The notes under the pieces: model-generated
Seen by the model: only the letters and a program-made list of their open reading frames with translations
The model's database searches: none
What the model was told of the DNA's origin: nothing
Shown: piece by piece, positions 49,083-55,289 of the stretch
How the letters are laid out: every line of letters starts with the position of its first letter
Numbering within the stretch: position 1 is the stretch's first letter
Translations under genes and position numbers: made by a program
Origin: Cupriavidus sp. D39
GTDB lineage: Bacteria; Pseudomonadota; Gammaproteobacteria; Burkholderiales; Burkholderiaceae
Direction of reading: 5' to 3'
NCBI RefSeq assembly: GCF_026627925.1
Contig: NZ_JAPNLE010000009.1
Span: forward strand, 3,534,001-3,598,000
DNA: 64,000 nt

Positions 49083-49117
49083 GGGAGTGGGGGAGTGGTT
49101 GTTGGTTGCAAGATTAG

Positions 49118-49165
49118 CTGCAACTGCAACTGCAACTGCAACTGCAACTGCAACTGCAACTGCAA
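49118..49165 (+). repeat. CTGCAA hexanucleotide microsatellite, 8 copies
   Basis: Eight perfect CTGCAA units immediately downstream of kdpE. It marks the outer end of the left arm of a large inverted repeat; the right arm ends in 18 inverted copies at 53604-53711. Confidence 0.95.
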
Positions 49166-49410
49166 AATCAGCTTCAAGTTCAACTGCTTAACGTCAAGGG
49201 CAACTGCAGTTTCACCTCCCCTGCGGGGAGGCGACCTACTTTCTTGTCTCGCCAAGAAAGTAGGCAAAGAAGGCGACCCGGATGGGGCGAAAGACTCCTC
49301 GTCGGCAGGCAAAAAGAGCGGCCGGAGGCCAAACTCGCATCGCCTTAAGGCGATACTCAAACATGGCCTCCTCGTTTCCGCTCTTTTTGCCTGCCGACGA
49401 GGCGCCCCAT
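49166..49410 (+). repeat. Left arm of the large inverted repeat
   Basis: AAAATCAGCTTCAAGTTCAA, CTGCAGTTTCACCTCCCCT, GGCGACCTACTTTCTTGTC, AGAAAGTAGGCAAAGAAGGC, AAGAGCGGCCGGAGGCC and ATCGCCTTAAGGCGAT follow in this order. The same order appears in reverse on the right side: 53603 down to 53516, then (after removing the IS3 insertion) 50007 down to about 49890. No gene is called within it. Confidence 0.75.
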
Positions 49411-49422
49411 AACGGGAGATGA

Positions 49423-49594
49423 AAACCTTGACGGCTCGCTGCGCATCGCGGGCGGGTGATTGCCGCCTAGGGGCGGGAATCACGGCTACACCGAATGGTG
49501 ATTTGAGGACATCGCTCTCCCACTGGTTCGGCCGTGTTTCCCGCCCGAGGGGCGGAAACACCCACGCGCGATGCGCAGCGAGCCGTCAAGGTTT
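49423..49594. repeat. 36-bp near-perfect inverted repeat
   Basis: 49423-49458 and 49559-49594 are inverted copies matching at 34 of 36 positions (core CTTGACGGCTCGCTGCGCAT). They enclose a hairpin-rich segment with GTGTTTCCCGCCC facing GGCGGAAACAC. Confidence 0.8.
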
Positions 49595-49880
49595 ACCTAG
49601 GCCGTATGGGGCGCCTCGGGACTTCACGAAAAGAGCGGCCGGAGGCCAAACTCACATCGCCTTAAGGCGATGCTCAGCTGCGCATCGCGGGCGGGTGATT
49701 GCCGCCTGGGGGCGGGAATCAAGGCTACACCGAATGGTGATTTGAGGACATCGCGCTCGCGCTGGTTCGGCCGTGTTTCCCGCCAGTCAGGCGGGAAACA
49801 CCCATGCGCGATGCGTAGCGAGCCGTCGAGGTTTACCTAGGCCGTATGGGGCGCCTCGGGATTCGACGAAAAGAGCGGAA
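49439..49880 (+). repeat. Two direct copies of a ~200-bp unit, period 239
   Basis: The unit starting CTGCGCATCGCGGGCGGGTG at 49439 recurs at 49678 and continues through GGCTACACCGAATGGTGATT, GGTTCGGCCGTGTTTCCCG and AGGTTTACCTAGGCCGTATG. Unit ends are about 49636 and 49880. No protein-coding support. Confidence 0.8.
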
Positions 49881-50515
49881 AAGAGGGACCCATGTTTGAG
49901 TATCGCCTTAAGGCGATGCGAGTTTGGGTCCCGGCCGCTCTTTTCGTCGAATCCCGAGGGGTAGTCGCCCCATCCGGCGCGCCTTTTTTGCCTACTTTTT
50001 TGGCAAGCGGCGTGTGTCAAGGTAGTTGTCGGTGTGCCAAGAAGGAAAGCGACAGTACGTCGTCGTACATGCTGTATCTGTGATGAGGGTAGGCCCCTCG
50101 GTTTCGCCGATCAGGCGGTGATACCAAACCACCCTGAGCTGCAGCCGTTAAGAGCGGTTGTGGTGAGCGTCAAGGGAAAAGGCGGGATGAATCTCGTCAG
50201 GTAGGCAAGGAGGAGGCGAACGCAAGTGAACCATCGAAGAAGTGTCGAGAATTGCAATGATGTCAAAACCGAGGGCTCGACAACACCTCGGGATAAGTCA
50301 GACGGCAACCTGGAGGTGGGTCTGACGGCATCCGGCATAGAGATGGCGCGACCTTCCTGCAGGCATGGATACGGAACTTGGGAACCTGTCGTCTCGATGC
50401 TAAGGGAGAAACTCAAGCGGAGAACCCGTGAGAGTCAGAGTACCAATGCGAGGCACAGGGGCGGAGTCATGCGTAGTAGCGGTGAAAGGGTTGTAATGAC
50501 CTCTGGAGCGAAGGC

Positions 50516-51823
50516 ATGACCTTGTCCGGCAGAGACCATAGAACAACCGCGATGCGGGAGGATTCCAGGGTCGACGCCAAGTCGTTCGAGATACCCAAGC
50601 GGTTGATTTGGGAAGCCTGGAAGCGTGTGGCCGCCAATCAAGGCGGGCCGGGCGTGGACAGCGAAAGTATTGAAATCTTCCGAAATCGTTTGGCAAGGAA
50701 TCTATACGCCCTGTGGAATCGAATGAGTTCGGGGAGTTATTTTCCCCAGCCGGTCAAAGAGGTGCTGATTCCGAAGGGGAGCGGGTTTCGTCCTCTCGGG
50801 ATACCGACCATCACTGACCGAGTGGCGCAGATGGCGGTCAAGTTAATGGTGGAGCCGAGAATCGATGCGATATTCCATGCATCATCGTTCGGTTATCGGC
50901 CGAACAAATCGGCGAAGCAAGCTGTGGCGCAAGCGAGAAGGAACTGTTGGCGCTACGATTGGGTAGTCGATATTGACTTGAAATCCTTCTTTGACACCAT
51001 CGACCACGAGCTTCTCAGGCGTGCGGTAGAAAAGCATGTCACGGAGCCATGGGTACGACTCTACATTAGACGCTGGCTAGAGAGCCCGGTGCAGAAGCAA
51101 ACCGGGGAATTGGTTGCTCGGGATAGAGGCACTCCGCAAGGCGGGGTGATCAGTCCATTGTTGGCTAACCTCTTTCTTCACTATGCGTTTGATCGATGGG
51201 TCCAGACCGAGCATCCGGAGGTGCCGTTTGAACGGTATGCCGACGATGTGGTTTGTCATTGCAGGACGAAGCATCAGGCGGAACAGTTCTTGTCTGCCTT
51301 GAGGGAACGGCTTACCGATTGTGGGCTTTCGCTACACCCGGAAAAGACGCGCTTGGTTTACTGCAAAGATGGACGACGTCGAGAGGACCATATCCATACA
51401 AAGTTCGACTTCCTTGGATTCAGCTTTCACGCTCGGACGGTACAGGACCGAGCGGGAAATTTGTTCAACGGATTCGGACCTGCGGTAAGTCAAAAGGCAC
51501 TAACGCGCATGTCTCAGGCCATCCGAAGCATGAGTCTCAATCGAAGTACCTCAATGACGCTGCGCGAACTGGCGCAGCGCATAAACCCAATGGTACGGGG
51601 ATGGGTGAATTACTACGGTGCTTTCTATCCAGAGCGGCTGAAACAGTTCTTGATCAGAATAGACTTACGGCTTGGCAGGTGGGCGCGAAATAAGTACAAG
51701 CGGTTGAGAGGACATAAACGAGGATCTTGGGCGTGGCTCAAACGATGTCGGGAAAGTCTTCCTCAGCTGTTCGCGCACTGGGATTTCTGTTTCGAAGAAC
51801 GGCGGACAAGAAGAGCCGTATGA
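50516..51823 (+). CDS. ltrA: Group II intron reverse transcriptase/maturase
   Basis: 435 aa. RT blocks run in order: GFRPLGIPTITDRVAQMAVK, SSFGYRPNKSAKQAVAQARR, VVDIDLKSFFDTIDHELLRR, RGTPQGGVISPLLANLFLHY and the catalytic RYADDVVCHC. The maturase X domain contains LAQRINPMVRGWVNYYGAFY. It ends without an HNH endonuclease domain, so it probably moves by a route that does not cut the second strand. The stop codon lies inside domain V of the intron. Frame intact. Confidence 0.95.
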   Translation: MTLSGRDHRTTAMREDSRVDAKSFEIPKRLIWEAWKRVAANQGGPGVDSESIEIFRNRLARNLYALWNRMSSGSYFPQPVKEVLIPKGSGFRPLGIPTITDRVAQMAVKLMVEPRIDAIFHASSFGYRPNKSAKQAVAQARRNCWRYDWVVDIDLKSFFDTIDHELLRRAVEKHVTEPWVRLYIRRWLESPVQKQTGELVARDRGTPQGGVISPLLANLFLHYAFDRWVQTEHPEVPFERYADDVVCHCRTKHQAEQFLSALRERLTDCGLSLHPEKTRLVYCKDGRRREDHIHTKFDFLGFSFHARTVQDRAGNLFNGFGPAVSQKALTRMSQAIRSMSLNRSTSMTLRELAQRINPMVRGWVNYYGAFYPERLKQFLIRIDLRLGRWARNKYKRLRGHKRGSWAWLKRCRESLPQLFAHWDFCFEERRTRRAV

Positions 51824-51846
51824 ATCGAGAGATTCACGTACGGATC
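51813..51846 (+). ncRNA. Group II intron domain V
   Basis: A 34-base hairpin starting GAGCCGTATG and closing CGTACGGATC, with the catalytic AGC triad, a GAGA-type tetraloop (ATCGAGAGAT) and the two-base bulge before the 3' arm. This is the most conserved part of group II ribozymes. Confidence 0.92.
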
Positions 51847-51895
51847 TGTGAGAGCCTGAGGGGGCAGTTCCCTCGGGCCACTCGACCCTCAGCCG

Positions 51896-53443
51896 TTACG
51901 CTGCTTTCTTGCAATCCCCCACGTTTTGCTGCGCTCGTTCCGGGTTCAGGTACACGGCATCGACTAGCTGCCAGTTACGGATGCCCGCAGCCCAACGCTG
52001 CGGGTTCCGGGCTCGCGCGGCCTGATACAGCGCCGTGCGCTGCGCCAGCAGGGCAGTGGCTTTGCCCTGATGCCGCTGGCTTGGCGTGACGTATTTCAGG
52101 CTGCTGTGGCGGTGCTCGTCGTTGTACCAACGCACGAAGCTCAGCACCCAGGCACGCGCTTGCTCCAGGCTCTCGAACGGGCGCTCCGGCCACAGCGGGC
52201 AGTACTTCGCCGTGCGGAACAACGCTTCGGCGTAGGCGTTGTCGTTGCTCACCCTGGGCCGGCTGTAGGACGGCACCACGCCCAAGTCATACATCGTTGC
52301 CAGCATGCTCGCCCCCTTCATGGCCGTGCCATTGTCCGAGTGCAGCACCAGCGGGCGGCCCGCCGTCTGCTCGCGCAAACAACCGTGCATCAGCAGACGG
52401 CTGGCATGCTCGGCCGACTCGCTCTCATGCACCTCGTTGGCGACCAGTTTGCGGCTGTAAATGTCCTTCATCATGTACCAGTAGAAGAACCGTCCCTTGA
52501 CTGTGGTCGGTAGCCAAGTGATGTCCCAGCACCAAACCTGATTCGGACCTTCCGCCCGGTGCGTCGTCAACGGACGAGCGCTCGGGGCCTTGCTGCGGCC
52601 ACGCCGTCTGCCTTGTCCCGCCGCCTTCAGGACCCGGTAGAACGTCGATTCCGACGCCAGGTAGATCCCTTCGTCCGCCAGCTTCGGCACGATCTGGTGC
52701 GGCGTCAGGCTGGCATAGCCAGGCTGGTTCGCCGCCGTCAGCAATGCCTGCCGTTCCGCTTCGCTGAGCTTGTTGGCAGGCGCGTCGCGACGCGCCTCAA
52801 GCCGCTTATCGGCAGGGGCATGCCGCCAGCGCTGCAAGGTTCGCTCGGTCAAGCCCAGCGCTTCGCAGGCCATTGCCTGTCGCGCCCCGGCGCTCACCGC
52901 TTCATCGATCAACTGTATGGCTTCAAAGCGATCCGGGGTGCTGATCAGTCTTCCTCGTCCCGTCCCCAGATCGCTGCGGCTTTTTTGCAGTACCAGCAGC
53001 GCTGCCGTTTCCGCCAGCGCCGCATTCTTGCGCTTGAGCTCGCGCTCCAGTTCTCGTACACGCTTCTGCGCCGCTTCGTCTTCCCGGCGCTGCGCCAGGC
53101 TTCGCTTGGCCGGTGCCACCGCATTAGCCTGCTCGCACGCCTCGCGCCATTGCCGGATCTGCTCCGGCTGGATGCCCTTCATCCGGCAGTATTCCGACAG
53201 TTCCGCCTCACTCAGTGGCGCCGTCTCCAGCACCACGCGAAACTTGTCCGCACTGGACCATTGATCACTTTGCTTCCCGTCACCCGGCACAATTCTTCCT
53301 GCAGCTCTCGCCATCTCGCGCCAAGTCCGCAAGGTCACTGTCGTGATCCCCGTGGCCTTGGCCAACTCCACTACCGATCGGTTAAGCGGAGGCATCATCT
53401 GCTCGACCGCCCACTCCCGGCGCTCGGCCGTATATCGTTTCAT
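51896..53443 (-). CDS. IS3-family transposase, OrfA and OrfB in one frame
   Basis: 515 aa. The N-terminal part has two HTH segments (NRSVVELAKATGITTVTLRT; LSEYCRMKGIQPEQIRQW) and a leucine-zipper-like region rich in Arg/Glu (RVRELERELKRKNAALAETA). The C-terminal rve domain has the DDE triad: Asp in WCWDITWLP, Asp in LHSDNGTAMKG, and Glu in NAYAEALFRTAKYCP. Most IS3 members need a frameshift to join OrfA and OrfB; here they are continuous. ATG at 53443 chosen from the conserved KRYTAERREW start. The frame also stays open far upstream, through the microsatellite. Confidence 0.93.
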   Translation of the reverse strand: MKRYTAERREWAVEQMMPPLNRSVVELAKATGITTVTLRTWREMARAAGRIVPGDGKQSDQWSSADKFRVVLETAPLSEAELSEYCRMKGIQPEQIRQWREACEQANAVAPAKRSLAQRREDEAAQKRVRELERELKRKNAALAETAALLVLQKSRSDLGTGRGRLISTPDRFEAIQLIDEAVSAGARQAMACEALGLTERTLQRWRHAPADKRLEARRDAPANKLSEAERQALLTAANQPGYASLTPHQIVPKLADEGIYLASESTFYRVLKAAGQGRRRGRSKAPSARPLTTHRAEGPNQVWCWDITWLPTTVKGRFFYWYMMKDIYSRKLVANEVHESESAEHASRLLMHGCLREQTAGRPLVLHSDNGTAMKGASMLATMYDLGVVPSYSRPRVSNDNAYAEALFRTAKYCPLWPERPFESLEQARAWVLSFVRWYNDEHRHSSLKYVTPSQRHQGKATALLAQRTALYQAARARNPQRWAAGIRNWQLVDAVYLNPERAQQNVGDCKKAA

Positions 53444-53515
53444 CTTCCAGTCGCACACCACCCTCCATTTTGCTTCATCAAAGAAGACGGAGACGACAAG
53501 TATCCTGACATGGAG

Positions 53516-53603
53516 GGCAAGACAAAAAAGTAGGTCGCCTCCCCGAAGGGGAGGTGAAACTGCAGTTGCTTTTGAAGTTAAGCCGTTGAATTTGAAGCTG
53601 ATT
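53516..53603 (-). repeat. Right arm of the large inverted repeat (outer part)
   Basis: Reverse complement of 49166-49255: GACAAAAAAGTAGGTCGCC, CTCCCCGAAGGGGAGGTGAA and GAAGCTGATTTT. The inner continuation of this arm is at about 49890-50007, on the other side of the IS3 element, so the arm was split by that insertion. Confidence 0.75.
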
Positions 53604-55289
53604 TTGCAGTTGCAGTTGCAGTTGCAGTTGCAGTTGCAGTTGCAGTTGCAGTTGCAGTTGCAGTTGCAGTTGCAGTTGCAGTTGCAGTTGCAGTTGCAGT
53701 TGCAGTTGCAGTCCACACCCTCCCCCTACCCTCACCACACCCCAAAAACACCCCCGCCTGCTTATAAACATTAGTCTTGGCCACCACCTCCCCATGACTA
53801 ACCGTAGTGCGCGGCTTGAGCGTGCAAAACCATTCCAGCAGGTGCAGCCGCATCGCCGAGCGGATGGCTTCGTGGCTGGCATCCTCGCCCAGGTCGAAGA
53901 ACTCATCCGGGTCGCGTTCCAGGTCGAACAGCTGCGGGCGGAAACCCTGCCAGTGCACATACTTCCAGCGCGCATTGCGCACCATCCACGCCCGGCACTC
54001 GCCCGGTTGCCGGCCCAGCGCAATCCGCGCGCCGCGATAGGCGTAGTCCAGCTCCGACACCACGAAGTCCCGCCACTGGCCATTGCCGCGCTCGCGCGTG
54101 AGATCCAGCAGCGAGCGGCCTTCCACGCGATGGTCGGCCGGTGGCAGGCCCAGCGCGTCCAGCACCGTCGGCACCACGTCCACGGCCGAGACCATGCGCG
54201 CATCCGTGCTGCCGCGGGTGGCGTCGGCCTGGGCCGAGGGGTCGTAGACAATCAGCGGGATGTTCTGCACGGTGTCGTAGAACTGCTCCTTCTCGCCGAG
54301 CCAGTGGTCGCCCAGGAAGTCGCCGTGGTCTGCCGTGAACACGATCAGCGTGTCTTCCCAGCGGCCCAGGCGCTCCAGTTGTTCCCACAGCTCGCCGAGC
54401 CGGTCGTCGATCTGCTGCACCAGGCCTTGATAGGCGGGACGCACCGTGTCCGAGACTTCGCTGCGCATGAAGTTGGCGCACTCTTCCTGCGTGCGGTACG
54501 CGTCGAGCACCGGATGCGGGTTGTCCAGCTCCGCGTCGTGGCGCTTGAGCGGCAGGCAGTCGTCCAGCGAGTAAGCCGCGTGGTAGGGCGCGGGCGCCAT
54601 ATAGGGCCAGTGCGGCTTGACCAGTGACAGGTGCAGCACCCAGGGATCATCGCCGCGCGCGGCGATGTACTGCATTGCCTGGCCCACCGTATAGGCCGTC
54701 TCCGAATGCGGCTCCGCCACGCGTGCCGGCAAGCCCGCATTGCGCATCTGCCAGCCCGACACGATCTCCCTTGCGCGTTCTCGGCGCTGATCACGTAGTC
54801 CGTCCAGGGGTCCGCGCTGTCGTAGCCCTGCTTGCGCAGCCACTCGGCGTAGGCGCCGTGCGGCTCGGCGTGGTGGCCGTCGTGGCGGTCGACTTCAACA
54901 AAGTGCCCGCTTCGCAGCAACGTTTCCAGCTCGCTGCCACCGTCGAGGTGCAGGCGCTTCATGTTGGCGTTGTCGGGCATGACGTGGGTCTTGCCGGCCA
55001 GCGCCAGGGCACGGTGGCTGTCCTTCAGGTATTCGCCCAGCGTCACTTCGCCGACGGACAGCGGCACGCGGTTCCAGGTGGCGCCGTGGCTGCTCGGGTA
55101 GCGCCCGGTGTAGAAGCTCATGCGGCTCGGGCCGCAAACGCCGGAGGTGACGAATGCCTTGGTGAAGCGCACGCCGCGCGCGGCGAGGGCGTCGATATTC
55201 CTGGTGCGCAGGGTGGGGTGGCCGTAGCAGGCCAGGTGGTCCTGGCGTAGCTGGTCGCACATGATGAAGAGGGTGTTTCGTGTGGACAT
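53578..55289 (-). CDS. Type I (formylglycine) sulfatase / phosphonate monoester hydrolase family, with microsatellite-encoded tail
   Basis: About 570 aa when repaired. The active-site motif is SGVCGPSRMSFYTGRYPSS, with Cys52 expected to become formylglycine (CxPSR). Metal-site residues are in LFIMCDQLRQDHL and IVFTADHGDFLGDHW. It cleaves a sulfate or phosph(on)ate monoester; there is no signal peptide, so it acts in the cytosol. The frame breaks at CCC 54768-54770. After KQAGVFLGCGEGRGRVW the chain continues into about 18 Thr-Ala pairs from the microsatellite and ends KSASNSTA, which is not part of any sulfatase fold. No formylglycine-generating enzyme is nearby. Confidence 0.85.
53604..53711 (-). 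repeat. TTGCAG (inverted CTGCAA) microsatellite, 18 copies
   Basis: Eighteen perfect units. It is the inverted counterpart of the 8-copy array at 49118-49165 and lies inside the 3' end of the sulfatase reading frame, where it encodes a Thr-Ala repeat. Confidence 0.95.

Follow-up and report, generated by a model that had tools for sequence, protein, structure and literature searches.

An endonuclease-less group II intron that very probably homes to the terminal inverted repeats of an IS3-family element in Cupriavidus sp. D39

Architecture of the locus

A stretch of 64,000 nucleotides of Cupriavidus sp. D39 (contig NZ_JAPNLE010000009.1, positions 3,534,001 to 3,598,000; referred to here as the window) carries an intact-looking group II intron, which is inserted 24 bp in from the left end of an insertion sequence (IS) of the IS3 family, itself located at the inner edge of one arm of an inverted repeat. 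This nesting was proposed in an initial annotation made from the nucleotide sequence alone, and all of its parts are borne out by Rfam, by protein domains and by the comparison of copies. The features of the locus, in window coordinates, are as follows.

49107-49253, no strand assigned: outer inverted repeat, left arm of 147 nt with 91% complementarity to 53516-53662
50004-50007, plus strand: left copy of the 4-bp target duplication CAAG
50008-53517, minus strand (that of the transposase): IS3-family element together with the intron inside it (1655 bp for the IS alone), ends derived from a comparison of five copies
50008-50031, plus strand: 5' exon, formed by the outermost 24 bp of the left terminal repeat and ending in TTGTCG, the presumed intron-binding site 1 (IBS1)
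50032-51886, plus strand: group II intron, starting with GTGTG and closing with the domain VI end ...GAC
50278-50283, plus strand: presumed exon-binding site 1 (EBS1) CGACAA, complementary to TTGTCG
50516-51823, plus strand: intron-encoded protein (IEP) of 435 aa, reverse transcriptase (RT) and maturase, YADD at residue 241
51811-51886, plus strand: intron domains V-VI (Rfam)
51896-53443, minus strand: IS3-family transposase, a single 515-aa frame from ATG
53494-53517, minus strand: right terminal repeat, intact and empty, with the same homing motif
53516-53662, no strand assigned: right arm of the outer inverted repeat, with the IS at its inner edge
53518-53521, plus strand: right copy of the target duplication CAAG

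The intron and its encoded protein

Two Rfam models match the intron RNA, namely group-II-D1D4-2 (RF01999; 50085-50202, 109 bits) and Intron_gpII (RF00029; 51811-51886, 55 bits). The IEP scores 415 bits against TIGR04416 (cut-off 300), and no endonuclease domain was detected in it by Pfam at E-values up to 5, the domains found being RVT_1 and GIIM; one extra match, to Phage_F, falls below its cut-off (E 0.043). The best solved-structure match of the IEP is the GsI-IIC RT (166 bits), a match that does not settle the intron class. The catalytic RNA domains and the RT/maturase, together with the existence of homologous sites free of the intron, identify the element as a bacterial group II intron. 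Such sites are found at the left IS ends of L017, L019 and L021 and at the right IS ends in the window, L018 and L020 (loci other than the window are designated by L numbers). The three left ends, which are from the same genome, read from ...GTGTGTCAAGGTAGTTGTCG directly into CCTCAGCCGTTACGCTGC and agree letter for letter with the join predicted on excision of the intron, a check that had been set beforehand. The agreement reported between the joined left end and the right end, 19 of 25 positions, is likewise exact (binomial P 1.3e-7). The megaplasmid of Cupriavidus sp. KK10 holds an empty counterpart (at 1276177) of the filled left end L082 which reads through the join; it agrees with the 3' exon over the first 21 bases of that exon, with single-base differences beyond.

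The insertion sequence

The transposase scores 236 bits against NF033516 (cut-off 160), which assigns the element to the IS3 family. Members of this family generate target duplications of 3-5 bp, have 5'-TG...CA-3' tips and encode two overlapping frames, orfA and orfB. Target duplications of 4 bp flank all five full-length copies (CAAG in the window and L020, CTCG in L018 and L019, CCAC in L017). The tips depart from the family pattern, being CGGCG and CCCTCC with TGTCA beginning 7-8 bp inside, and the transposase forms one frame in the window, while in L027 and L034 the homologue is divided between two frames.

The element outlined in the initial annotation is real, but its tips lie 7-8 bp further out than was proposed (CGGCGTG at 50008 and CCCTCC at 53517), because the tip letters are common to copies at different sites. 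Similarly, a target duplication is present, but of the GGCAAG described on both sides only CAAG is duplicated, the right-hand GG belonging to the IS end. The suggested order of events, with the repeat in place before the IS and the IS before the intron, agrees with both junctions, as seen in the intron-free IS ends and in the IS-free copies of the repeat arm; the IS-free arm has 36 matches in the genome at up to three mismatches, ten of them exact, against none for a reversed control pattern. The transposase frame is untouched, as had been stated, with the intron at 50032-51886 and the transposase at 51896-53443 on the opposite strand.

Intron copies and the homing motif

The nesting is not a one-off. 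In all five full-length IS copies found in the genome, the intron occupies an identical point within a terminal repeat, at the left end in the window, L018 and L020 and at the right end in L017 and L019, while the opposite end of each retains the same motif, empty. Three of the intron copies are intact and identical over 1855 bases, and two are interrupted (L019, L020). No full-length IS copy free of the intron was found in this genome, in keeping with a target that became saturated recently. There are 11 exact occurrences of the motif GTCANNNTANTTGTCG in the genome, all of them at ends of this IS, compared to a single match for the backward control. Ten of these occurrences are on contig C9; the eleventh, on contig C1, belongs to a truncated IS and is empty, and the strand counts given below cover C9. 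A fragment at L023:3267-3453, 92% identical to the first 189 bases of the intron, has a repeat-like 5' exon (CTCAAGATAGTTGTCG) and adjoins matches of another intron family.

At the left end the introns lie beyond the transposase stop and in antisense, while at the right end they lie upstream of the start and run in the same direction. At either end, 1.86 kb or more comes to lie between the IS tip and the remainder of its repeat, so that an intron-loaded IS copy is probably immobilised.

The window and L020 are 17 kb apart and occupy the same position in a repeat, with CAAG duplications in both, and it is quite possible, if somewhat short of an even chance, that they represent a single insertion, copied either by duplication of the repeat that contains it or by gene conversion from one repeat arm to another. 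A right-hand stretch of 182 bp, comprising the IS end and its flank, is 98% identical between them. The left flanks are only 90-93% identical, against 99.9% for the IS and 98.7-100% for the intron parts, a pattern that two insertions into a repeated target fit equally well.

Strand bias of occupancy

The filled and empty motif sites of C9 separate by strand. All five sites on the lagging-strand template are filled and all five on the leading-strand template are empty (Fisher P 0.008); if L020 is left out as a possible duplicate of the window locus, the counts are 4/4 and 0/4 (P 0.029). For this assignment C9 was treated as a circular chromosome, with the origin inferred from dnaA (C9:3,436,178) and GC skew. 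The sign of the skew fits an origin at dnaA in 18 of 20 sampled stretches, being negative in ten out of ten samples between 0.55 and 2.98 Mb and positive in eight of nine from 3.52 Mb via the contig end to 0.28 Mb. The exceptions are the samples at 3.79 Mb and at 3.25 Mb, the latter positive contrary to the position of dnaA and with no motif site near. This is the pattern expected of an endonuclease-less intron priming on the replication fork.

Relatives in other genomes

A scan of genome contigs yielded 29 loci, 15 of which encode an IEP with at least approximately 64% identity; two plasmid records bring the close loci to 17. Their hosts include Cupriavidus, Paraburkholderia, Caballeronia, Rhodocyclus, Halomonas, Methyloglobulus and uncultured relatives. 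The 5' junction is readable in 13 of the 17 (all but L034, L035, L044 and L056; L026, which has the same position and ends as L044/L071, was not counted apart), and each of these 13 agrees with GTCANNNTANTTGTCG at 11 or more of its 12 fixed positions. The pattern was defined after the junctions had been seen, and three of the 13 loci are from one strain (L029, L031, L053). A homologous transposase follows on eight of the ten readable 3' sides, entered from the stop side in five (L029, L030, L031, L035, L082) and from the start side in three (L027, L034, L037), the matches in L030 and L035 being short (38 and 47 aa). In L032 the 3' exon covers 140 bases only. These transposases are approximately 35-60% identical to that of the window. 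The presumed EBS1 CGACAA is conserved in 13 of 14 aligned introns, L054 being the one that differs. At L029:2480-2516, directly before the intron, there is a head-to-head pair of IS-end motifs resembling an IS-IS junction.

Among loci with 38-56% IEP identity, no transposase neighbour was found in 13 of 14, several of which hold little flanking sequence; the fourteenth, L038, has a weak transposase match (27% over 135 aa). A habit general to group II introns was accordingly rejected on the basis of these 13 distant loci. By annotation, a cousin intron in E. coli lies in an antitoxin gene. The nearest IEPs on Sinorhizobium plasmids are 55% identical, and the two copies with a readable 3' exon have another target. 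Cousin introns at this level of identity in Sinorhizobium meliloti ml59 (L104, L134, L135) have RT or maturase fragments annotated alongside, and these cousin introns may home into other introns. A search of 399 genomes across the order at E 1e-150 returned a match in the intron's own genome only, and no match was found in the viral contigs searched. A protein search returned 7794 relatives without gene context, which served as background only.

Homing to IS ends and the alternatives

Collectively, these observations argue strongly for a mobile group II intron without endonuclease which homes to the terminal inverted repeats of elements in one IS3-family subgroup. Under the proposed mechanism the EBS1 CGACAA would pair with TTGTCG, whose end lies 24 bp inside each IS end, and since TTGTCG is present inside both ends each IS offers two sites of opposite polarity. 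The intron would take, by retrohoming, whichever IS end is exposed as single-stranded DNA on the lagging-strand template during replication. Such an insertion would leave the transposase frame whole and, with the IS tip displaced by 1.86 kb from the inner repeat, would probably stop transposition of that copy.

Several points weigh against this interpretation. No convincing candidate for exon-binding site 2 (EBS2) was found. The strand sample is small, at five filled sites, of which the window and L020 may not be independent, and both the origin and the circularity of C9 are inferred. In KK10 the only filled site (313851, plus strand) is on the leading-strand template according to GC skew, and an intact lagging-strand site (1276177, plus strand) is empty, while a third site, in an IS fragment (1185584, minus strand), is empty on the leading strand, as expected. 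Three insertions interrupt the KK10 intron copy, and the record it gives may therefore be older than a rearrangement, but it is still counted against the strand rule. Among the relatives, L033 has a repeat-like 5' exon with unrelated frames and no transposase on its 3' side, and L027, L032 and L037 are each one base off TTGTCG.

The shared position could alternatively reflect descent, if the intron had entered one IS on a single occasion and the two had since spread by co-transposition. The three left-end copies at the same position (window, L018, L020) and the target duplications around the five IS copies are in keeping with this. However, introns occupy opposite ends of near-identical IS copies (L017 as compared to the window) as well as the right end of an IS that is 88% identical (L019), which implies at least three insertions in this genome, and the relatives reside in IS elements whose transposases share only approximately 35-60% identity with that of the window. 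Pure co-transposition is refuted as a full account by the opposite-end placements and is improbable as the explanation, although it may account for L018 or for the window/L020 pair. A domesticated intron serving the host or the IS, for example by driving or insulating the transposase, is still harder to credit, for although the right-end introns (L017, L019) lie upstream of the transposase in the same direction, those at the left end are antisense and beyond the stop codon, there is no conserved single arrangement, and two of the five copies are broken by further insertions.

Comparison with known IS-targeting introns

Homing to both terminal repeats of one IS has a precedent in RmInt2 of Sinorhizobium, which is described as using both terminal inverted repeats of ISRm17, with the argument that at least one ISRm17 repeat lies on the lagging-strand template (PMC5894124). 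The kind of intron habit seen here is therefore already known. Both host and IS differ, and the two systems are likened by target habit rather than by kinship of the intron or IS; in the present case a number of related introns of several proteobacteria share the habit, the targets are IS3-family elements and occupancy has been counted by strand. RmInt1 is reported in the same source to home to ISRm2011-2 of the IS630 family and to block the spread of that IS (PMC5894124), and two further papers describe its IEP as lacking an endonuclease domain (PMC8914252, PMC5010178). The intron of the window resembles it in homing to an IS and in the absence of this domain but differs in the IS family targeted. 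As for RmInt1/RmInt2-type behaviour, lagging-strand insertion is seen in strain D39 (5/5 against 0/5), with KK10 presenting the opposite. E.c.I4 of Escherichia coli is recorded as targeting IS629, IS911, ISEc16 and ISEc31 (PMC3522654), and to that extent is likewise an intron targeting IS3-like elements. Class C introns, as characterised in PMC4424553, are also endonuclease-less and insert at inverted-repeat motifs such as terminators and attC sites; their target is a type of motif, whereas here a fixed sequence complementary to EBS1 is retained.

In a literature search of openly licensed papers, neither this intron lineage, this IS group nor a count of filled versus empty sites was encountered, and for introns in IS ends the excerpts returned held only the RmInt2 case and the IS-targeting introns (PMC3522654). 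Terminal repeats are the only part of an IS that is not free to drift and are present in two copies of opposite polarity, which makes them a good target for an intron dependent on the lagging strand. The D39 genome in effect provides a natural experiment, in which the usable ends are all filled and the unusable ends all free. A second case thereby joins RmInt2/ISRm17, found here across related introns, and its clean set of empty and filled sites is suited to the question of whether introns police transposons.

A serine recombinase element in intron RT genes

A 2.0-kb element, here termed X (L020:8176-10173, approximately 6-8 kb past the window end), splits both of the interrupted introns, L019 and L020, at identical codons and carries one large serine recombinase gene. 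At least five full-length copies of X are present in this genome (L019, L020, L105, L111, L113), and among the matches listed all split an intron RT at the PQGG motif (residues 207-214). Both orientations occur, and the RTs concerned share as little as 30-39% identity with that of the window. In KK10, an X with 81% identity splits an intron RT likewise (L082). Six further matches occur in three genomes of the same genus, four bordering an RT at the motif and two, both fragments, not doing so. X homologues were also found in 33 plasmid records, 16 of which were examined besides KK10. Eight of these 16 split an RT at or near the motif, three of the eight being from Actinomycetota, and no RT was found beside the X homologue in the other eight; the split is sharp in L128-L131 and L133, marked by overlapping alignment ends in L118 and L119, and involves a shortened X in L125. 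Some relatives of X carry a second small gene.

On a tree, the RT-splitting members form two groups, with a non-splitter placed inside one of them, suggesting that the habit is ancient or has more than one origin. It is rather likely that a three-tier chain of parasites is involved, with introns on the end repeats of IS elements and X on the introns through the codons of the conserved PQGG-V-I-S-P motif, across distant intron lineages and at least two phyla. If this is true, X would be using as its attachment site a sequence that is hard for an active intron to lose. Nothing on point was found regarding a serine recombinase inside intron RT genes in the portions of the literature searched. The L020 intron copy additionally contains an approximately 2-kb transposase element (L020:6146-8100; 580-aa frame, IS1634-like by eye), whose 7-bp duplication (intron nt 1044-1050) marks a further layer of nesting.

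The intergenic repeat

The region at 49107-49959 of the window corresponds to an intergenic repeat, also present at 36 genomic places, with nested palindromes and GCAACT runs; AAAAAAGTAGG, part of this repeat, is the IS target in both the window and L020. A run of the hexamer GCAGTT is open in several frames, and mechanically called open reading frames (53578-54843 and 51896-53716, both minus strand), one sulfatase-like by eye and the other the transposase frame, extend into it as Thr-Ala or Asn-Cys repeats.

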